From Sporomusaceae bacterium (GTDB lineage: Bacteria; Bacillota; Negativicutes; UBA1444): 64,000 nt of DNA. A program made the translations under genes and the position numbers. Positions 50,433-63,157 of the stretch are shown one piece after another (the first letter of the stretch is position 1; each line of letters opens with the position of its first letter). The stretch covers positions 1-64,000 of the forward strand of contig JAHDPL010000010.1 in NCBI GenBank assembly GCA_018434355.1, in the 5' to 3' direction. The notes beneath the pieces are model-generated. The model had not been told where the DNA came from. It ran no database searches and saw only the letters and a list, made by a program, of their open reading frames with translations.

Positions 50433-50933
50433 ATGAATATGCATTGGGGAGAGTTGCTCACGGTACTTGCAGAGTCCGTGACGTTGTACAAAGATCTCCT
50501 CTTGCTTGGCGAGGAAAAACGCCAGGCTTTGATTGGGGCAGACACCGCCATGCTGGACGCGATTACCCGGCGGGAAGAATTGAGAATTCTCGAAGGAACG
50601 AGATTGGAAGAGCGGCGGGCGAAAGCGACCGCCGCGCTTGCTACCCATCACAAGTTGGCTGACCGAAAGCCGACGCTGTTGATGCTGGCCGATGCGGCCG
50701 ATCCGGATACGGCGGAACAAATCCGCTCCCTCGGCGCCGAACTGGACACGGCGGTGAAGCAACTGGTTCGGCTGAATGATACCAACGCGGCGCTGATTCA
50801 TCAGGCGTTGCATTTTGTTCAGTACAACCTGAACTTGCTGACACGCAGCCAAGCGGAAACTACCTATGTGCCGACAGGTGGACGCAAGGCGACCGGCGGT
50901 TCGGCGGCGATGATTCTTGACCGCAAGGTCTGA
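50433..50933 (+). CDS. flgN: Flagellar export chaperone FlgN
   Basis: This 166-residue, mostly alpha-helical protein starts behind ATAGGAGGCG. It has the FlgN pattern of a long N-terminal helix (YKDLLLLGEEKRQALIGADT) and a C-terminal coiled region (NDTNAALIHQALHFVQYNLN) that would hold FlgK and FlgL. Given the giant FlgL encoded downstream, this chaperone must serve an unusually large client. Confidence 0.88.
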   Translation: MNMHWGELLTVLAESVTLYKDLLLLGEEKRQALIGADTAMLDAITRREELRILEGTRLEERRAKATAALATHHKLADRKPTLLMLADAADPDTAEQIRSLGAELDTAVKQLVRLNDTNAALIHQALHFVQYNLNLLTRSQAETTYVPTGGRKATGGSAAMILDRKV

Positions 50934-50955: not shown

Positions 50956-53058
50956 ATGCGTTCAACATTTGCCGGACTGAATACGATGGTGCGGGGAATT
51001 TATACCCATCAGATCGCCCTCGATACCGTCGGAAACAATATCACCAATATCAATACGGACGGTTATTCCCGGCAACGCACCAATATCGTGACGACCCCGT
51101 CGGAGTTCATCCTGGGCAGTCAGGGTTCGGTCGCGATCGGTACCGGCTGTGTCACCGAATCCATCGTCAGACTGCGTGATGAACTGATTGATTCGCAGAT
51201 CCGCAAAGGATCGACGCCGCTTGGCTATGCTGACACGATGCAGGACACGCTGGGGCGGATCGAAGATATTTTTACCGAGCCTTCCGACACCGGGCTGCAG
51301 ACGGCGCTGGACAATTTTTGGAGTGCATGGCAGCAGTTGGGGACGAATGCGGCCGATACCGGCGCACGTTCACTGGTGCGGCAACGCGGCATCGAGCTGG
51401 TCGATGCGATTGGTCGGGCAGCCGGTTTGTTAAAGGATATCCAGACCGATGCAAATATCGCACTAGGGACAAAAGTGAAAGACCTGAATCAGAAACTGAC
51501 GGAACTGGCGGCAGTGAACAAACAGCTGATTGCCAGCCCCACCGATCAGGTCAATGCGCTGAAAGACCGTCAGGATTTGTTGCTCGAGAAAATTTCTTAC
51601 ATGGTTCCGATCCAGACGACCAAAGAAGCCAGCGGCAGCGTGACGGTGACGATCGGCGGCATTACGGTCGTCAATCAGGATCGGGCCAATCTGCTGGATC
51701 CGAACGTCAGCGAAACGGGAGTTCTCAAAATGGCCGGCACCGGCATGGAAGTGAAACTAGGCAGTCAAGGCGGCGAGCTGCAGGGGCTGCTTGATTCGCG
51801 CGATTCCCTGGTTTGGGGCGCTCCGGCCTACCTGGAACAATTGGGAACGATGAGTCAGTTTTTGCTGAATGATTTCAATGCGTTGCATCGCAGTGGTTAT
51901 GGCTCGGATAATGGCACCAACGTGAATTTTTTTGGCGACAGCATTTTTGGCACAGGCAGTGCGGCAATCGGCACAACATTGCGCCTTGCATCCAGCTCCA
52001 GCGTCTTGGCTACCACGACGGTGCCGGCCAATACGACGCTGCAGATTGGTGACGGAAACGCCACGATGGATGTTAATTTGGCGCAAGGGTGGACGCTGAC
52101 GCAGGTGGCCGACGCAATCAATGCCCAGGCCGATTTTGACAATATCAATATTCGGGCTAAATATGACGCGGAAACGCAAGCGTTCCAGTTCTATTCCACT
52201 GGAGATAGCAAGACGCTGACCGCCACAGAACCGGCAACCAGCGTTTTTCTCAGCAATACGCTGAAACTGTCGAAACCTCCCGCCGATTACTGGCTAGGCC
52301 AACTTCAGGTCAATCCTGCTCTGATGGGCACGGAAGGTCTGGCGAAAATTGCGGCGAAAAGTTCGGCCGGCAATATCGGTGTGACACCGCAGGAAGTGAA
52401 ATCAAGCAGTATTTGGCAAGGGAATGCATCAGGCGGTGCGATGACGGCAACCGTCACCGGGACATATACCTTTGATCCGGCTTCGATGCCGATCCGGGTC
52501 CGTATCAGCGGTCTCACGACCAATCCGGACGGGACCAAGGTTCCCAGCGGACTAGAGTATTCGACCGATGGTCAGACCTGGACCGCAGCCGAACCCGGGG
52601 CGGAAGCATACAGCTATAAGTTCACCGTGCAGGGCGCGACCGTCAACATGAGCATCGCCGCAAATGCCAATAATAAGGTCAACGATATCTATGTTGTGAC
52701 GCTACCAAGCGGCAACACAGGAATTGCCGGCGGCGACTTGGCAACGGCGCTGGCCAATCTGCTGAAAGTAACCAAAAGCGAGAGCTTGGGCAATGTTTCG
52801 CTGGATGGATTCTATAACAACTTGATCGGCATGTTGGGGACGCAGAGTCAGAACGCGCAAAACCAGGCGACCAATCAACAGTCGTTGGTGGATCAGACGA
52901 AAAAGATGGGCGATGCGATTTCCGGCGTCAACCTGGATGAGGAACTGACAGCCATGATCAAGTACCAAAAGGGTTACAATGGCTGCGCCCGCATGTTGAC
53001 TGCGATGGATGAGATACTGGACAAACTGATCAATGGCACGGGCATCGTGGGACGATAG
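50956..53058 (+). CDS. flgK: Flagellar hook-associated protein 1, FlgK
   Basis: A 700-residue hook-filament junction protein. The N-terminal rod-like D0 segment reads STFAGLNTMVRGIYTHQIAL, then VGNNITNINTDGYSRQ. The C-terminus has GVNLDEELTAMIKYQKGYNG and MLTAMDEILDKLINGTGI. The length is somewhat above the 450-650 usual range, with a middle insert containing GLEYSTDGQTWTAAEP, a motif repeated in the adjacent FlgL. Ribosome site CGGAGG precedes ATG 50956. Confidence 0.94.
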   Translation: MRSTFAGLNTMVRGIYTHQIALDTVGNNITNINTDGYSRQRTNIVTTPSEFILGSQGSVAIGTGCVTESIVRLRDELIDSQIRKGSTPLGYADTMQDTLGRIEDIFTEPSDTGLQTALDNFWSAWQQLGTNAADTGARSLVRQRGIELVDAIGRAAGLLKDIQTDANIALGTKVKDLNQKLTELAAVNKQLIASPTDQVNALKDRQDLLLEKISYMVPIQTTKEASGSVTVTIGGITVVNQDRANLLDPNVSETGVLKMAGTGMEVKLGSQGGELQGLLDSRDSLVWGAPAYLEQLGTMSQFLLNDFNALHRSGYGSDNGTNVNFFGDSIFGTGSAAIGTTLRLASSSSVLATTTVPANTTLQIGDGNATMDVNLAQGWTLTQVADAINAQADFDNINIRAKYDAETQAFQFYSTGDSKTLTATEPATSVFLSNTLKLSKPPADYWLGQLQVNPALMGTEGLAKIAAKSSAGNIGVTPQEVKSSSIWQGNASGGAMTATVTGTYTFDPASMPIRVRISGLTTNPDGTKVPSGLEYSTDGQTWTAAEPGAEAYSYKFTVQGATVNMSIAANANNKVNDIYVVTLPSGNTGIAGGDLATALANLLKVTKSESLGNVSLDGFYNNLIGMLGTQSQNAQNQATNQQSLVDQTKKMGDAISGVNLDEELTAMIKYQKGYNGCARMLTAMDEILDKLINGTGIVGR

Positions 53059-53070
53059 GAGGGACTGGAC

Positions 53071-56000
53071 ATGGGGGTTAGCCGGATTACTGACAGCATG
53101 ATGAACTACGGGTTCCTGTCAGGCATGAATAAATCGTTGAATACGCAATACAGCCTGATGGAGCAGATGTCTGACGGCAAGCGGATCCACCGTCCTTCCG
53201 ACGACCCTGTCCGCGTGATTCGCAGTTTGCAATATCGCAGTGCGGTTATGCAGAACCAACAGTATGTCGATAATGTGAAATCGGCTCAATCCTGGATGGA
53301 GATGACGGATAAAGCCGTTGGCGACCTCAGCGAGCTGGTCAGTCAGGCAAAATCGCTAGTTGTGAGGGCGATTGAACCCAATAGCACAGTCGGTTATGCA
53401 GCTGCGGCCAAACAATTGGATGGAATCATCAATCAAGCGATTCAAGTGGCCAATACACAAATTGGCGACCGTTATATTTTTGCCGGACAGATGGATAAGA
53501 CTCAGCCGTTTCAACGTGTAATGTTGGAAGATCCGACCGGGCAAAGTAATTTGAAAGTTGATACGGTCGTGTATTATGGCGATGACAAAAAAATATCGAT
53601 GGTGACGCAGTCGGGATTGCCGAATGTGGCCCGCGACGGGATCAATCTGACCGGCATTGACGTGTTTGGCCGCGTTGGGTCGACGCCGACCCAGTATGGC
53701 CAGGCAACGACCGATGTGTTCAATATGCTGATCAGGGTTAAGGAAGAGCTGGAAAAAACGGCGGCCGTCACCAAAACCAATTCGCTCGGCGGCACGCTGG
53801 ACGTGGATGGCGGCTATACCGGACCAGCCGAGTACCAAGATTTTGCAGTGAAAATCGATGCGCTGAAAGTGAGGTTAAACACCTATGCGCAATCCAATAC
53901 CGGAGGAGGTTCGCTGGCTCTTTCCTGGACAAAAGCAAAGGCGACCATGCCTGCGTACGCTTCGCCCAATTCCCTGCAGATGCGGATTGACGCGCTGAAG
54001 GTTGCCGCGACGGTAACGGCGCCGTTGGGACATGTTACCGGCGCGTTGACGCTGGAATCGACGACAAATCAGTTGCCGGTGGCTGCCGCTGGTGAGCTGC
54101 AATTCCGGGTGGATGCCGTGCAAGTGGAATCCGGCGCTGTGCGGCAGAGCAATCCGCTGGCAGGGAACCTTAGTGTTGTTTATAATGGTTATAAAGGAAC
54201 GCCGCCAGCTAATTTGCTGCTAAAAACGACGGTCAGTCCGGCGGCTAACGTATTGCAAACCAATGCAACCGGGGGCGCGTTGACAGTCACGGGAATTGCA
54301 GGCTCGGCTGATGCGGCGACGCGAGTTCGGATCGACGCGGTGGTTGCCGGCGAAGTGACTGCCGCCAGCTATTTTGATACCTTGAGTAACAGTTGGCAAA
54401 CGGCGACGGTTACGGCAGGCCCTCCTTCCGCGTTGACTCTGGGGACAACGGGGATTACGGCGACGATCGAAGCGGCAGCAGGCAATGCGGCTGGTGACCA
54501 GTATACGCTAAATGCCACCAAGCGGGTTACCGGCGTGGAATATTCAACGAATGGAACCTGGCCTGGAGTGGCGGCAACCGGCACGTTTGTTGCGCAAAGC
54601 AATGCGGCTGGCGGAACGGCTACTGTTTCTCCTCAACAGTCTATTCCATACAAAGTCGAAATCATTGCAGTCGATGGCGCGGGGCAAGTTACAGATGCCA
54701 GAGTATCGACCGACGGTGGATTGACATGGGGTGCTACCCAGAGCGGATTGACTGGAAGCGTGACACTGGCGAACGGGGCTGTCATGACGATCGCCACTGA
54801 TCTGGACAATGCCGCCGGTAATACTTATGAGTATAAAGTGCCGCCGACGTTTACATTGAATAATGCCGGCAATGATATCGGCATGCAGATTTCTATCGCT
54901 GATTCTACAGAAAACGGTTCGGGGACAGACAACATTTATACGATTCCACTTACAACTACAGGGAAAGCGATGCAGGCCAGTTATTCGACAGATAATGGAG
55001 CGACATGGACTGCTGCGACGACCGACAAAGAAGTCAATCCGTTCCGGTTTAACCTGTCAGGAATTTTTTCCGGTTTTTCGATCCAATTGGGGACTGTTGC
55101 GACGAATCTTGTTGGCGATATTCATCATATCAAACCAACGGTCACCGCTCCGACCGATCATGTTACCGGTGCACTGAGCATCTCGGCGGCGGCCGATACG
55201 GTGATTGCAGCATCTGAGCTGCAATTTCGCGTCGATACGGTGGCGCCGGGAACCGGGCAGGTACTCACAGCCAGTTATTCGACAGATAATGGCGCCACTT
55301 GGGTGGCGGCAACGCCGGATGATCCGCTAAACCCTTTGAATTTCAGCCTGATGCCGGGGGTCACGGCCCAGCTTGGCGCCGTGGCGACCAATGCGACCGG
55401 CGATGTCCATTCGATACGCATGACCGACGGCGCTGTCGCTAGAGCCAGCTATTCGACAGATGGTTGGTTTACCGAAGCAGAAGCCACCGCCGACAGCGCT
55501 GCTCCTGCCGGTTCGTTCATTCTCGGCGACAGCGGATTCAACGCCGCCATCGCCAAAAACTCGACCAATAACGGCGGAGATTTCTACACATTGTCTGACC
55601 TCTCGATTGATGCCGCTACTGAAGCGGCGGCGCTCAGCTACTCGCTCGATCATGGCAATACCTGGGTCAAGGCGACTGCTCCGACAGTGACCAAGTCTAC
55701 GGCGGATAGCGGTGAACTGACTCTTAGCGGCAAATATACCGGGTTGCCGGCGTTTCAGGACGTCAAAGCGACCGTGCAAGCGTGGAAGGTGAATACGACT
55801 GCGATTACCCAGTCGCCGCCTGCGCCTGCCGGCGGGACGATGAAACTGGCCTATGCGGGAGCGGGTCCTCTGCCGGCAATCGATCCGCAGGTTCGGATCG
55901 ATGCGGTCGATTCAGCCGGCCATGTTACGGCGCTTAGTTCCTCGGATGACGGTGGACTGACCTGGACCAGCGCTACGGCGCAGAGCAGTCAGGGACCGGT

Positions 56001-56727
56001 CGTGTTCAGTCTGGGCGGCGGTCTGACCAACTATTCGGTCACGATAGCCGACAATGCGAACAATGCGGTCAATACCGAATATACCGCTACTGGCGCAGCA
56101 CTTGTTACCGGAGATCCGGCTCTCATAAGTTTCACGACTGAACCGGCGCCGGATGTGAACGGGACAATCACTCCTTCGGCCAGTATCTGGTCTATGAAGG
56201 GCGCTACCCCGAATGTCGTCGATTTTGCCTTGGCAGACGGCGTGACGGCGGATATCGAAGCAAGCGCGGCAACCGTGCTGGGGACATCCAACTACTCTTT
56301 TCGAATTCCACCGCGGTTTGCTCTCGCTTACGGCGTGGAAGTCAGCATCGATCCCAATGCCAACAACTTGGTGAAAGACGCTCATACTTTCCACATGGCC
56401 CGTGATACAGAGCACACAAGCGCAAGCGATAGCGCAGGGCCAGATCTGGACTGGCTGTCCGATAAAGGACTGTCCGATTTGGACAAGGTTCATGACCAAA
56501 TTTTAACTGCGCTGGTCGATGTTGGAAGCAAGGCGTCCATGTACGAAATGACCGGTAACATGCTGGAGTCCAGTTACAACAATCTGACTTCGGTGCTGGC
56601 AACCAATGAGGATGTCGACATGGCCAAGGCGATCATCGATATGAAGACGGCGGAAAACACCTACAAAGCCGCTTTGTCCTTCGGGGCCAGGATTATGCCG
56701 ACGTCACTGGTAGATTTTCTGAGATAA
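53071..56727 (+). CDS. flgL: Giant flagellar hook-associated protein 3, FlgL (1218 residues)
   Basis: The N-terminal ~230 residues (MNYGFLSGMNKSLNTQYSLM, RIHRPSDDPVRVIRSLQYRS, IGDRYIFAGQMDKTQPF) and C-terminal ~105 residues (GSKASMYEMTGNMLESSYNN, EDVDMAKAIIDMKTAENTYK) are standard FlgL. Between them lie about 870 extra residues of beta-rich, Thr/Ala/Asp-rich sequence. It repeats blocks such as HVTGALTLES / HVTGALSISA, GELQFRVDAV / SELQFRVDTV and ASYSTDNGATW. Normal FlgL has about 300 residues. The insert should form large domains projecting from the hook-filament junction. I saw no cysteine in it. Confidence 0.93.
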   Translation: MGVSRITDSMMNYGFLSGMNKSLNTQYSLMEQMSDGKRIHRPSDDPVRVIRSLQYRSAVMQNQQYVDNVKSAQSWMEMTDKAVGDLSELVSQAKSLVVRAIEPNSTVGYAAAAKQLDGIINQAIQVANTQIGDRYIFAGQMDKTQPFQRVMLEDPTGQSNLKVDTVVYYGDDKKISMVTQSGLPNVARDGINLTGIDVFGRVGSTPTQYGQATTDVFNMLIRVKEELEKTAAVTKTNSLGGTLDVDGGYTGPAEYQDFAVKIDALKVRLNTYAQSNTGGGSLALSWTKAKATMPAYASPNSLQMRIDALKVAATVTAPLGHVTGALTLESTTNQLPVAAAGELQFRVDAVQVESGAVRQSNPLAGNLSVVYNGYKGTPPANLLLKTTVSPAANVLQTNATGGALTVTGIAGSADAATRVRIDAVVAGEVTAASYFDTLSNSWQTATVTAGPPSALTLGTTGITATIEAAAGNAAGDQYTLNATKRVTGVEYSTNGTWPGVAATGTFVAQSNAAGGTATVSPQQSIPYKVEIIAVDGAGQVTDARVSTDGGLTWGATQSGLTGSVTLANGAVMTIATDLDNAAGNTYEYKVPPTFTLNNAGNDIGMQISIADSTENGSGTDNIYTIPLTTTGKAMQASYSTDNGATWTAATTDKEVNPFRFNLSGIFSGFSIQLGTVATNLVGDIHHIKPTVTAPTDHVTGALSISAAADTVIAASELQFRVDTVAPGTGQVLTASYSTDNGATWVAATPDDPLNPLNFSLMPGVTAQLGAVATNATGDVHSIRMTDGAVARASYSTDGWFTEAEATADSAAPAGSFILGDSGFNAAIAKNSTNNGGDFYTLSDLSIDAATEAAALSYSLDHGNTWVKATAPTVTKSTADSGELTLSGKYTGLPAFQDVKATVQAWKVNTTAITQSPPAPAGGTMKLAYAGAGPLPAIDPQVRIDAVDSAGHVTALSSSDDGGLTWTSATAQSSQGPVVFSLGGGLTNYSVTIADNANNAVNTEYTATGAALVTGDPALISFTTEPAPDVNGTITPSASIWSMKGATPNVVDFALADGVTADIEASAATVLGTSNYSFRIPPRFALAYGVEVSIDPNANNLVKDAHTFHMARDTEHTSASDSAGPDLDWLSDKGLSDLDKVHDQILTALVDVGSKASMYEMTGNMLESSYNNLTSVLATNEDVDMAKAIIDMKTAENTYKAALSFGARIMPTSLVDFLR

Positions 56728-57350: not shown

Positions 57351-57472
57351 AAAAGGCAAGACAGGGAAGGCCTTTAGTTCCAAGGATGGAGCGAATACCC
57401 CAATGTATTCCGCTTGTCATTCAAGGGATTGAAGGCTATTTTTTGCGCCCAAAAACAAGGATGAGGTTGGCA

Positions 57473-59065
57473 ATGAACAGAAGGATGGAACCGCAAACAC
57501 GAACCAGCTTGCTGTATCAGCAGGCCAGGCGTCATCACCAGCTGGGAGAATTCGGCGAGGCGGTCGGCTTGTATGCACAGGTTTTGACGGCCCGGCCGCG
57601 TCACACTCCCACACTTCTGTATCTGGGCGAGATTGCCTGGCAGACTGGCAACCTGGATCAGGCCATTGTATTGCTGACGCGTGCTTTGGCAATCGATCCC
57701 CAGTATACTGCTGCACATGACTTGCTGTGGCAGGTATACAAGGCGCAGGGGGATTTTGCGGCTGCGGAACGAGTGCTGCGGCGTTTGATCGAAATTCGCA
57801 GTTATGACGGGTACAATTACTATCACTTGGCGTTGTTGCAACAGGAGCTGGGCAACCGGCTCGAAGCCCGCCAATTGTTTGAGCAGGCAATCCGTTATAA
57901 ACCGGATGATGGACGAATTATTGCCGCTTTCGGCGACTTGTTGCATGCGATGGGACATATTGCAGATGCAGCAGCAAAATATCGACAAGCTTTGATGCAT
58001 GATCCGCGCAATGCAGATTACCATTTTCAGTTTGGCTATCTGCTCACATGGTGCGGGCAAACTCAGGAAGGACTTGCCCACATTGATCGGGCCGTTCTGC
58101 TGGATCCAGCCAATACCGTGCTGAGACAGCGGCGCGCAAAGGCGTTGCTAAAGGCAGGGATGCTACGGGAAGGTTTTATGGCAGCGCAGCGCAGCGAGGT
58201 TCACTGGAACGGCGAAGCGATTAGCGGCAGACTGTTGGTTTATGGCGCATCGGATATCGCGGACATACTGCAATTTGCCAGATATTTGCCACAGATCAAA
58301 GCCCGTTGCGGCAGATTGATTCTTGCGCTGCCCAGGTCGTTGATGAAGTTGTTCAGCAACCTGCATTGCGTTGACGAAATCATAGAAGCGACAGAGACCG
58401 GGTTGCGCGAGGCGCAGGCGGAACAGACGGTATCGTTTGCTGCTTTGCCTTTCGTAATGGGAACGACGCTCGAATCGATCCCGTCGCACACCCCTTACCT
58501 TTTTGCCGACCCTTTTTTGACTCACTCCTGGGTAAAGCGGCTGAACTGGAAATCCTTCAAGATTGGACTTGTTTGGTCGCAGACAGAGGACCAGCAACCA
58601 GCGATTTCAGCAAGCGACCTGGAACGATTAGTGAGTTTGCCGGGGATTTCCTGGTATAGCCTGCAAGCGGAAAAGCAAATCGGTGAAGAAACTGCCCGCT
58701 ATACACTTCCAATCACTGATTGCACGGCCAGCCTGCGCGATTATGCCGATCAGGCTGCGCTGGCCGCCAACATGGATCTGATTATAGCGATTGACTCGCC
58801 AGCGGCTCATTTGGCTGCCGCGATTGGTCGACCCGTCTGGGCGCTGCTGCCGTTCGATGCGAACTGGCGTTGGCTGCACCAGCGTGAAGATAGCCCCTGG
58901 TATCCGACGATGCGGTTGTTTCGTCAAAACCAGCCCGGCGATTGGGATGAAGTACTCCGAAGGGTTGCCGAGGCGCTCGGCCCCCAATCCCGACCGTTCC
59001 GGCAATTCCAGCCTCTGCAAGGGAAACCGCGCGAATTCTTTGCAGAAACGGCTGTCACATATTAA
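57473..59065 (+). CDS. TPR protein with GT9-like glycosyltransferase domain
   Basis: I start at ATG 57473 (GATGAGG upstream); ATG 57386 has a poorer site. The 530-residue product has about six tetratricopeptide repeats (residues ~10-240, including GEFGEAVGLYAQVLTARPRH and GNLDQAIVLLTRALAIDPQY). A C-terminal GT-B domain follows, with IAIDSPAAHLAAAIGRPVWA and DWDEVLRRVAEAL. Similar proteins are found with flagellin genes and are proposed flagellin O-glycosyltransferases. It lies inside the flagellar operon, three genes before flagellin. The sugar donor is unknown. Confidence 0.8.
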   Translation: MNRRMEPQTRTSLLYQQARRHHQLGEFGEAVGLYAQVLTARPRHTPTLLYLGEIAWQTGNLDQAIVLLTRALAIDPQYTAAHDLLWQVYKAQGDFAAAERVLRRLIEIRSYDGYNYYHLALLQQELGNRLEARQLFEQAIRYKPDDGRIIAAFGDLLHAMGHIADAAAKYRQALMHDPRNADYHFQFGYLLTWCGQTQEGLAHIDRAVLLDPANTVLRQRRAKALLKAGMLREGFMAAQRSEVHWNGEAISGRLLVYGASDIADILQFARYLPQIKARCGRLILALPRSLMKLFSNLHCVDEIIEATETGLREAQAEQTVSFAALPFVMGTTLESIPSHTPYLFADPFLTHSWVKRLNWKSFKIGLVWSQTEDQQPAISASDLERLVSLPGISWYSLQAEKQIGEETARYTLPITDCTASLRDYADQAALAANMDLIIAIDSPAAHLAAAIGRPVWALLPFDANWRWLHQREDSPWYPTMRLFRQNQPGDWDEVLRRVAEALGPQSRPFRQFQPLQGKPREFFAETAVTY

Positions 59066-59122
59066 CTTGCAAAAAATATCAAAAGGATTGACTTGATAGA
59101 GTCAAGTGAGGAGGGACCCTCG

Positions 59123-59638
59123 ATGAGAATTCAGACCACCCGGTTTGGCGAACTGAACGTACCTGCGGAGTGTATCATCCGCTTCGTATCCAGCCTCGCC
59201 GGATTTCCCCGCCACAAACGTTTTGCCTTGTTTCCCTACGAAGAAAACAGCCCATTCTACATCCTGCAATCGGTTAGCAATGCGGAGCTGACATTTTTAC
59301 TGGTCGATCCGTACCGCTTTTTTAATGGCTATGTTTTCGAGGTGGAAGATGATCTGGCTGAGACTCTGGGTTTTTCGGACGAAAATCCTCCGGCGGTCTA
59401 TACGCTGACCACCCTTCATGACAAATTGGAGGATGCGACGGTGAATCTGCTGGGACCGGTTCTGGTGAATTGGGCCAATCGAACTGCGGTACAGATGACG
59501 TTGCAAAATTCTTCGTATGCAGTCAGGCAACCGCTATTCCCGGAGGGGTTTAGCCTGGAGCGGAAGCGGGACGAGATCCGGGCGAAACAAAACGTCAAGC
59601 CCGTAAACTATGAGCTGCGGCAGGAGGCGATTGGATGA
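59123..59638 (+). CDS. fliW: Flagellar assembly factor FliW, copy 1
   Basis: Started at ATG 59123 (GAGGAGGG upstream); 171 residues. FliW motifs: RFGELNVPAECIIRFVSSLA, GFPRHKRFALFPYEE, FLLVDPYRFFNGYVFEVEDD and VNLLGPVLVNWANRTAVQM. FliW binds either flagellin or CsrA; when flagellin is exported, freed FliW relieves CsrA repression of the flagellin mRNA. This copy has a longer, basic C-terminal tail than copy 2. The stop overlaps the start of copy 2. Confidence 0.9.
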   Translation: MRIQTTRFGELNVPAECIIRFVSSLAGFPRHKRFALFPYEENSPFYILQSVSNAELTFLLVDPYRFFNGYVFEVEDDLAETLGFSDENPPAVYTLTTLHDKLEDATVNLLGPVLVNWANRTAVQMTLQNSSYAVRQPLFPEGFSLERKRDEIRAKQNVKPVNYELRQEAIG

Positions 59639-60105
59639 ACATAAAGACAACCCGCTTCGGTGAAATCGAAGTGCCGGAAGAATGCATCATCCGTTTCGTC
59701 GATGGTTTGCCCGGTTTTGCCGATGAGACCAAATTCGCCCTGTTTCCTTACGAACCGGAAAGTGCATTTTCGATTATGCAATCGATCCAGAACCCGGATC
59801 TGACATTTCTACTGGCGGACCCTTATCGGTTCTTCAACGACTATATGTTTGAACTGGATGACCGAATGGCTAGCGAGTGGGGTTTTTCCAACGACAATCC
59901 GCCCCATGTTTACACGGTGGCGACAATGCGGGACACGCTGGAGCAGATGACCGTCAACCTGTTGGCGCCGATCGTGATCAATTGGGAAAAACGCATCGGA
60001 GCGCAACTGATCATCGAGAACAAGCATTACTCCGTACAGCAGTTGCTGTTTCCTGAAGGGATCAAGATGAAACCCGCCCCCAAACAAACTGAGCAGGGGG
60101 GCTGA
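59635..60105 (+). CDS. fliW: Flagellar assembly factor FliW, copy 2
   Basis: The 156-residue paralogue is adjacent and overlaps copy 1 by four bases. It reads RFGEIEVPEECIIRFVDGLP, GFADETKFALFPYEPE, FLLADPYRFFNDYMFELDD and VNLLAPIVINWEKRIGAQL. It is closer to the canonical FliW than copy 1, in length and in the GLPGF segment. csrA follows after four bases, so copy 2 may be the main CsrA antagonist while copy 1 could have another client. Confidence 0.92.
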   Translation: MNIKTTRFGEIEVPEECIIRFVDGLPGFADETKFALFPYEPESAFSIMQSIQNPDLTFLLADPYRFFNDYMFELDDRMASEWGFSNDNPPHVYTVATMRDTLEQMTVNLLAPIVINWEKRIGAQLIIENKHYSVQQLLFPEGIKMKPAPKQTEQGG

Positions 60106-60373: not shown

Positions 60374-63157
60374 ATGATTATCAACCATAATATCTCGGCT
60401 TTGAATACCTATAACCGTTTGATGTTAAACAACACCGGAGTATCCAAGTCTTTGGAGAAACTTTCCAGCGGCATGCGGATTAACCGCGCTGCTGATGATG
60501 CCGCAGGATTGGCAATTTCCGAGAAAATGCGCAGCCAGATCCGTGGCCTCGATCAAGCCCAACGTAACGCCCAGGACGGCATTTCACTGATCCAGACGGC
60601 GGAAGGCGCGCTCAGCGAAACCCACTCGATCCTGCAACGGATGCGTGAGCTGGCGGTTCAGGCGGCCAACGACACTTATACTTCGCAGGACCGCCAAAAC
60701 ATCCAGGCGGAAATTGACCAACTGACGGCAGAGATCGACCGGATTTCTTCCTCGACCCAGTTCAACGGCAAGAACCTGCTCGACGGCTCGACGGCGGCTC
60801 TGGTGTCAACCGACAAACTGACGACAAAGGTGTTTATGCGCGACGGGCTGCGGATTCTCGACCAGTTTGGCCAAAAATCGGCCGGCGGCGGCAACTATCG
60901 CTTGGACATCACGGCGACCGGCGGCAACGGCCAAGTACAGAAATCGGATATTTTCAAAATCAAGCATGCGACGACGATTGAGAGCACGAAGATTTCGAAT
61001 GCAGTATATACCGATGGGCGATTTGCCAAAGCATGTTTGGTGGTTACTGATGGGACGGCTAACGATGCGAATGCAAGCTTGACATTGACCTTTGATTTTG
61101 GCGGAGGCTGCGTATATAGCGTAACCTGCGGCGATTTGAATGGATCCACCAGCACTACGTTGGCAGGCTTGATTAACGCAAACACGTCGCTTGCTTCCCG
61201 TTTGACTGCCGCAACAGTTAGTGGCGATAATTTGCAAATTGTTTCGAAAATTGCCGGGCAGGATTTTACAATGACGGCAACTCTCACAAAAACTGCTGCT
61301 GCAGTAGGAGCCTTTGAGTTTGGTGACGGAAGCGGGCTCGATACTACGGGTGGAATAGGGATCCTAACCTGTTCTGTATCGACAAATAACGGTTCCTATG
61401 CGGTTGTGGACACCAACGGCCTTACCACTACACAAGCAACGAAAAATGTGACTGGCGTTGCTATGAACTGCGCTATGAAAGAAGGTACATACGGGATTGA
61501 TACAGCCCGTGATGTGGTTGATGCTGCTGCCGCATCTTCCATTACCAGTTTCTACAGTTGCCTGGGTGTTGTAGCCGCAACAATGGGTGGCGCAGCTTTT
61601 TCCAACACGGCGCTGAATTTATCGACGATTGTTATTGTGGATAGTGTCTGCAGTAGCCAAAATACAGCGCAAGTAAAGTATTTGACGCACGCTATTGACC
61701 AAGTTGGATGCAACTTTGATGATTCTGATTGGCACACCGAGACCGTTACTACTGATAATGCAACAGCCACGGTTTTAAATCTGGGCGGTTCGTTGGGGAC
61801 AGTAACACTGACCTTTGCAGAGACTACATCCATTAAGGCCTGTGACAAATTGGTTCTTTCGGGAGTCTCTCAGGCAGTTGCGGCAAACTTTGATTCAAAG
61901 ATTACGTTGACATGCAGTAACGATGGTGGAACAACTTACACAAATTTTGCCTGCTTTGTTTTTGATACTGCGCGACTCGATCGCAACAGTGTGAACTTGA
62001 AATTCTTCCAAGTGGACAACTTAAAAGGAGAGTTTAGCGACGCCTCACTTACAGTAACGACAGATACATATATTGATACGGCAACTAATGCTGCCCGATT
62101 CAACGTTGTTAAAAGCGTAACCTCTGACGACAGCAGCATCGGCTGCTTGGCCGGCCTGAACACAAAACTCTACGACGTCGATAAATTCTGGGATTCCAAC
62201 GGTAACTTCATTCTGGAGACGCCGCAAACTCTTACGTTGGTCCAGGGCGACGGCAAAAAAGTCAACTTCTCGATCACTGGCGCGGACACATTTGAAACCC
62301 TGCGGGACAAATTGAACGAAGCGATCGGTACAGGACTCGGTCAGACTGCCCTGGTCGGAGCGGAAAACGCCGACAAGTTCGTTTCCTTCGTTACCAGCCC
62401 CTGCGAAGCTGGTAGCGAAGCTGTAAAAGGCACCTTCGTCATCCGATCGGCGATTGCCGGCAAAGACGGTGAAATCAACTTTGTTGGTGACGACAATGTG
62501 CTGGCCGCGCTGAGCCTGATGACGATTCAAAAGGCAACCGGCAACGTATACACCGTCGATGTCACGGAGGCTCACTATGGGTGCGTGGTGGCAAGTGATG
62601 TGACTGTCGCCGACAACAATCTGGTCGGTATTGTGCACAAAAACGTGGACGTACAGTTTGCTTCCAACTCCGGTCTGGTAACCTGTTGGGATGCGACGAC
62701 AAACTCGTTCGTGATGACCGGCGGCGCCAGCAACTACTGCAGTACATTCATCCATCTGGCAGACCGCACAATGGTGTTCCAGATCGGAGCCAACCAGAAA
62801 CAAGACGTCGGCGCAGCCATCGGCAACATGAGCAAGTACTCGCTAGGCGTCGACAATGTTCAGGTAACAACCAACGCTTTGGCAAACGAAGCAATCGGCA
62901 AGATCGACAAAGCGATTAGCTTGGTATCTTCGCAAAGGGCTACACTCGGTGCACTGCAAAACAGGCTCGACCACTCGATCAACAGCCTGGCGACAACCAC
63001 CGAGAATCTGACCGCCGCCGAATCGCGCATCCGCGATGTCGACATGGCCAAAGAAATGATGAACTTCACCAAGTTCAACATCCTGAACCAGGCGGCCACG
63101 GCGATGCTGGCCCAGGCCAACCAGCTGCCGCAGACGGTATTGCAACTGCTGAAGTAA
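60374..63157 (+). CDS. hag: Large cysteine-rich flagellin (927 residues)
   Basis: The N-terminal ~140 residues ([40 protein letters not shown]) and C-terminal ~90 ([33 protein letters not shown]) are typical flagellin D0/D1. The middle ~650 residues form a huge variable region with 16 cysteines between residues 221 and 789 (e.g. [22 protein letters not shown]) and a hook-IN-like segment near 620-700 ([17 protein letters not shown]). Flagellins usually have none or one Cys and 270-550 residues. No CxxCH or HExxH motif was seen. The middle (about 60.96-62.15 kb) looks A+T-richer than its flanks. Confidence 0.95.

Follow-up and report, generated by a model that had tools for sequence, protein, structure and literature searches.

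From Salmonella, FlgL is known to form one ring of 11 subunits, located distally in the hook-filament junction, and the D2 domain of FlgL faces outward (PMC12221982). In the FlgL of X. campestris (PDB 5ZJ0/5ZIZ), a helical core likewise carries an outer beta-sandwich insert, and this D2, which resembles the D2 of FlgK, has been proposed to brace neighbouring subunits (PMC6155364). It is, however, one D2 and not about nine, without nesting, and Asp-box repeats are not described there. The FlgL of C. jejuni (750 aa, PDB 9GSX, PMC12221982) is also giant and places a bulky outer D2 at the junction, but it is shorter than the protein described here and was not among the listed PDB sequence matches of our domain profile. 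Giant flagellins of thick filaments (PMC6248924) display outer-domain growth, as do the ~930-aa flagellins of the genome studied here, yet this growth concerns the flagellin and not the junction protein. Giant FlgLs as such are already known.

We analysed a window of 64,000 nucleotides (contig JAHDPL010000010.1, positions 1 to 64,000, assembly GCA_018434355.1) from a Sporomusaceae bacterium of the Negativicutes, in which FlgL reaches 1218 aa, about four times the usual size of this protein. What is new here is the architecture, in which copies of an amplified D2-type domain lie mostly inside loops of earlier copies. Our literature searches found no paper joining FlgL with Asp boxes and, for Sporomusa, flagella and FlgL together, only a general tree-of-life paper.

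The flgL gene and its repeat domain

The gene is one open reading frame with an ATG start and no internal stop, and its place in the order flgN (50433), flgK (50956), flgL (53071) fits that of a FlgL:

50433..50933, + strand: flgN, export chaperone of FlgK/FlgL (PF05130, E 4.4e-23)
50956..53058, + strand: flgK, 700 aa (TIGR02492, E 7.5e-89)
53071..56727, + strand: flgL, hook-filament junction protein with giant insert (TIGR02550, E 1.4e-56; intact open reading frame)
53071..53766, + strand: FlgL N-terminal D0/D1 core, residues 1-232, aligned to the FlgL of relatives
53767..56424, + strand: FlgL insert, residues 233-1118, with about nine copies of an Asp-box beta domain
56425..56727, + strand: FlgL C-terminal D1/D0 core, residues 1119-1218, plus stop; aligns with relatives and with TIGR02550
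56885-57265: DUF6470 protein, directly after flgL

TIGR02550 matched residues 5-246 with 192.6 bits (cut-off 127.2), the C-terminal part was also aligned to it (model positions 265-387), and both terminal helical regions are present. The conserved helical ends are intact, and in the N-terminal core the motifs R/PSDDP and GDRYxFAGQ are invariant or nearly so in comparison with the FlgL of relatives. The preliminary description of this DNA had announced a giant FlgL, which is upheld; the insert, put there at about 870 residues, is present, but its size has to be corrected to 886 aa.

The internally repeated blocks that had been noticed in the insert are real, with a best ungapped self-match of 116, followed by 87, 85 and 81, against a maximum of 53 in five shuffled inserts. 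At the DNA level these repeats are diverged, with at most 80% identity over 50 nt, and assembly slippage or misassembly is therefore unlikely. The repeat unit is a beta domain of ~95 residues with an Asp box (SxDxGxTW), which falls into three pieces, A (consensus QSN..GG.L.V..YTG...VRIDAV), M with the Asp box (G.VT.A.YSTDxGxTW) and C (F.L..GV...I..NANN..GD.Y.F). For a non-circular test on FlgL and FlgK of the window, domain profiles were built only from the copies of relatives (Z = 200,000), and in FlgL they matched the repeats with a best iE of 1.6e-16. A search with the repeat domain against Pfam (and PHROGs) returned no family, only weak Asp-box and chance matches; PF02012 (BNR/Asp-box) matched 18 of 52 domain members with a best E of 0.0064, and the S-x-D-x-G-x-T-W hairpin is seen in the translation. 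Asp boxes are structural hairpins and recur in many folds. Sequence matches of the repeat domain covered this hairpin and nearby residues only, and no sialidase-type beta-propeller was among the listed matches of the single-domain model.

Structure prediction, suggested earlier for repeated beta-sandwiches, was carried out on a single copy (domain 9) and returned a beta domain of seven strands, with a mean pLDDT of 87.7 in AlphaFold2 (alignment of 52 rows). Foldseek of this model against the PDB gave no match at E < 0.001. The best listed match by TM-score, clearly above the others listed, was to the D2 of B. pseudomallei FlgK (4UT1; TM 0.57, rmsd 2.7, 86 columns, 13% identity), which is a single copy there and whose E of 3.0 is not significant. 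Given this likeness, and since X. campestris FlgL D2 resembles the same FlgK D2 (PMC6155364), the repeat unit is best read as a D2-type beta-sandwich, with a predicted fold that is probably like that of FlgK D2.

Arrangement of the copies within the insert

Along the insert, the pieces and intact copies are laid out as follows:

53767..53886, + strand: domain 1, first piece (A), residues 233-272; 14.8 bits with the relatives-only A profile, a score not reached in 200 shuffles
53887..54006, + strand: domain 2, first piece (A), residues 273-312; weak call from the QSN..GG start and RIDAL strand, 1.5-2.0 bits only, position inferred
54007..54126, + strand: domain 3, first piece (A), residues 313-352; reciprocal best match to domain 7 A, 96 vs 38 for the next
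54127..54951, + strand: 275-residue block inside domain 3 (residues 353-627; domains 4, 5, 6), absent from the matching intact domain 7
54250..54525, + strand: domain 5, intact, residues 394-485; relatives-only profile iE 1.2e-10
54583..54852, + strand: domain 6, intact, residues 505-594; relatives-only profile iE 1.6e-16
54952..55140, + strand: domain 3, rest (M with Asp box, C), residues 628-690; reciprocal best match to domain 7 M-C, 171 vs 85 for the next
55138..55431, + strand: domain 7, intact, residues 690-787; relatives-only profile iE 7.4e-10
55423..55602, + strand: domain 2, rest (M, C), residues 785-844; profile positions 38-97
55603..55680, + strand: domain 1, Asp-box piece (M), residues 845-870; 12.3 bits, a score not reached in shuffles
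55684..55806, + strand: domain 8, first piece (A), residues 872-912; 13.8 bits, best match is domain 1 A (63)
55804..56100, + strand: domain 9, intact, residues 912-1010, used for the AlphaFold2 model; iE 7.6e-09, pLDDT 87.7
56206..56310, + strand: domain 8, last piece (C), residues 1046-1080; 8.3 bits
56308..56406, + strand: domain 1, last piece (C), residues 1080-1112, shortly before the C-terminal core; aligned to the last strands of the domain in relatives' FlgL, weak by profile alone

From relatives-only profiles and self-matches, the order of pieces reads A A A A (AMC) M (AMC) C M C (AMC) M C M A (AMC) M C C, with the middle piece of domain 8 (about residues 1010-1045) being divergent. 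The repeats are mostly non-tandem, and several of them are split, with other copies lying between their pieces. Read as a stack, the order is perfectly nested and gives nine domains, up to five deep; a nested parse would arise from random order with a probability of 1.1e-6, or 3.6e-4 if the four intact copies are set aside. It should be noted that several pieces (A of domains 2 and 4, M of domain 8 and several C pieces) are near noise by profile alone, and both the total of nine domains and the complete parse therefore rest partly on motif and position judged by eye. The strongest proof of nesting within the window comes from domain 3, the pieces of which are separated by 275 residues holding domains 4, 5 and 6, while those of the matching domain 7 are adjacent. 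Both halves match domain 7 reciprocally, with the scores given above, against shuffle maxima of 42 for A and 49 for M-C. The spacings of the DNA repeats agree: A parts recur at 1122-1128 nt and Asp-box parts at 294 nt. When placed on the domain 9 model, the points of insertion are located between strands.

Relatives display the same arrangement in simpler form. FlgL of S. silvacetica and three of its kin reads AMC followed by AM(A..C)C, and in the model of the S. silvacetica protein (622 aa, mean pLDDT 77.7) the nested domain reaches pLDDT 81-92 and the returning strands of the split host (488-520) mostly 82-89. The best PDB matches of this model are FlgLs, with that of X. campestris including D2 in first and that of C. 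jejuni in third place. In the 944-aa FlgL of Pelosinus, a block of three domains separates the strands GVKFNI and GDVYSFRVPQ, which are adjacent in the Sporomusa ortholog (GISFNI..GGVYSFRVPQ). In the domain tree, where too few columns were available to resolve the copies of the window, the three copies of this block form one group (94% SH-aLRT).

We therefore regard it as well supported that the copies multiplied via insertion into loops of earlier copies together with local duplication, and that the insert is nested rather than a plain tandem array. This would represent protein growth via repeated domain-in-domain insertion in place of tandem repeats. An ordinary tandem array, decayed by deletions to half-domains whose order is accidental, would explain why some pieces are too diverged for profile calling, and real tandem copies do exist, two in a row in Sporomusa FlgK and two in the 524-aa FlgLs. 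We nevertheless consider such decay improbable, since both halves of domain 3 match the intact domain 7 across a gap filled with whole domains, random order yields a valid nesting only with a probability of 1e-6 to 4e-4, and relatives carry clean nested insertions. An artefact of assembly or annotation, by which repeats were misjoined or genes fused, deserves hardly any weight: the assembly is indeed at contig level, in 55 pieces, but the DNA repeats are too dissimilar (about 80% over 50 nt at most), the gene is a single clean frame with normal flagellar genes on both flanks, and shorter versions of the same architecture occur in relatives.

Distribution of the domain in FlgL, FlgK and flagellins

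A profile search of 380 Negativicutes genomes detected the domain in 34. At the loci that were fetched, nearly all copies reside in FlgK or FlgL, and some in ~500-aa flagellins of Sporomusa, Pelosinus and a few others. In a sample of the phylum, seven further genomes carry the domain, five of them in flagellins. In FlgL of the Negativicutes, the length follows the number of copies in steps of ~100 residues: proteins of 302-334 aa, such as the 302-aa FlgL of S. malonica, carry no copy, those of 408-434 aa one, of 524 aa two, of 622-648 aa three or four, of 944 aa about six or seven, and the window FlgL about nine, being the longest among the domain-bearing FlgLs of the class. These insertions are always located at about FlgL residue 230, and in all domain-bearing relatives examined the insert lies between the N- and C-terminal helices of D1. 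A D2-type domain that many Negativicutes FlgLs carry once at this site is here multiplied to about nine copies. As for relatives forming an already described FlgL class of this length, other large FlgLs do exist (C. jejuni with 750 aa, Nitrospira with 1050 aa), but none was found that combines this length with this domain. In the Nitrospirota FlgLs of 1050 aa (Nitrospira, L156:5926-9075) and 919 aa (a MAG, L178:5926-8682), the inserts show no clear match to the domain.

Sporomusa and Pelosinus FlgLs (408-944 aa, L129-L137) carry the same domain at the same site, nested in the larger ones, but with one to about seven copies against about nine in the window, and their expansion appears to be separate according to the FlgL core tree. 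In this tree, in which the window branch is long, inheritance of the window FlgL together with the Sporomusa group is weakly rejected (p 0.015 against one clade), and so is inheritance together with the sister species (p 0.02). This sister, the other UBA1444 genome, has a FlgL of 324 aa without an insert and with 47% identity at both ends.

The same domain is found in the neighbouring FlgK, for which a block similar to that of FlgL had been noticed and is now confirmed by a relatives-only profile match to residues 486-587 (iE 3.9e-15, Z = 200,000). It had further been supposed that the whole late filament gained large surface domains. As far as sizes are concerned, this stands, with 700 aa for FlgK, 1218 aa for FlgL and 927 and 926 aa for the flagellins; the shared domain, however, does not extend to the oversized flagellins, as the relatives-only profile found no match in the window flagellin:

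52408..52716, + strand: repeat domain, one copy, in FlgK residues 485-587 (relatives-only profile iE 3.9e-15)
60374..63157, + strand: giant flagellin, 927 aa; lacks the shared domain

FlgK lengths also rise with copies, from 500-511 aa without a copy to about 600-640 aa with one and about 680-720 aa with two, and some flagellins of Sporomusa and Pelosinus carry one copy. The ~510-aa Sporomusa proteins considered as FliD are flagellins. These data point to a beta domain, not represented in Pfam, which FlgK and FlgL have in common with some flagellins. In one further genome (G077), the FlgK open frame extends over 2185 aa (L091:7114-13668, - strand), with the FlgK D1 and C-terminal families both matching, next to a normal FlgL of 307 aa and a flagellin of 1268 aa; another flagellin of 1248 aa is encoded elsewhere in this one-contig genome.

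Proposed structure and role of the enlarged FlgL

We propose a model in which nested amplification of a D2-type domain in FlgL leads to an outer collar with a likely mechanical role, and we assign this overall explanation a probability of roughly 0.6. Each FlgL would form a branched radial spoke, built of beta-sandwiches and directed outward from the ring at the junction, and eleven inserts of ~88 kDa each, taking the subunit number from Salmonella, would add up to a collar of roughly 1 MDa at the hook-filament junction. The likeliest role would be mechanical, with the bulky outer layer fitting and stiffening the junction to the thick filament of ~930-aa flagellins; the collar may also brace neighbouring subunits, comparable to the proposal for Xanthomonas FlgL D2. 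The length of FlgL appears to be tolerated here, since the domains are attached to surface loops and are expected to stay clear of the polymerising core. The more specific picture, in which recursive insertion into earlier copies produced a tree-like FlgL of up to five levels and a dendritic collar, and in which one outer domain is shared among flagellin, FlgK and FlgL in Negativicutes, seems to us evenly poised. Over 50 pairs in the class, FlgL length correlates with flagellin length (Spearman 0.47, p 5e-4, uncorrected for kinship), and with main clusters only the value is weaker at 0.36 (p 0.06); there are clear exceptions, among them the FlgL and flagellin of G077.

Neutral accretion, by which surface loops of FlgL tolerate insertions and functionless domains pile up by recombination, is a serious rival to the mechanical role, unlikely though we judge it. 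It would account for the sister FlgL lacking an insert, for a copy number that varies freely within the class, between none and nine, and for the apparently separate Sporomusa/Pelosinus expansion. Yet all copies have stayed in frame and open over 886 residues, most have retained the Asp-box pattern, and it is not obvious that exporting an additional ~88 kDa with each subunit would be neutral in cost. The preliminary description had raised a sheath-like or adhesive layer as a possibility. A sheath made of FlgL is implausible because only 11 copies are present in one ring (PMC12221982), and this low number per flagellum also speaks against an adhesive or glycan-binding organ at the flagellum base. 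For the latter one could invoke the Asp boxes, which occur in sialidases and carbohydrate-active enzymes too, the Thr/Ser-rich and acidic composition of the insert (13.4% Thr, net charge -34) and the glycosylation-type genes near the flagellins, but the Asp box is not particular to such proteins and no convincing match to a catalytic or binding family was obtained, which leaves this function improbable. The class offers a natural series of 0, 1, 2, 3-4, ~7 and ~9 copies, along which FlgL varies in outer size around a constant core, rendering the role of the outer domains directly testable.

Several further features were observed downstream of flgL. The region 57386-59065 includes a TPR protein with a weak glycosyltransferase-9 match and is likely involved in flagellar modification, and it is followed by two adjoining fliW genes (59093-60105, 181 and 156 aa). 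The 927-aa flagellin contains many cysteines mid-protein, an uncommon trait among flagellins; FlgL is devoid of cysteine. The second flagellin of 926 aa lies just beyond the window (L090:1915-4695) and shares 64% identity with the first along its full length. Around the flagellins, L090:4780-5982 and L090:6253-8100 encode a methyltransferase and an MptE-like (Maf-type) protein, both likely acting in flagellar modification.
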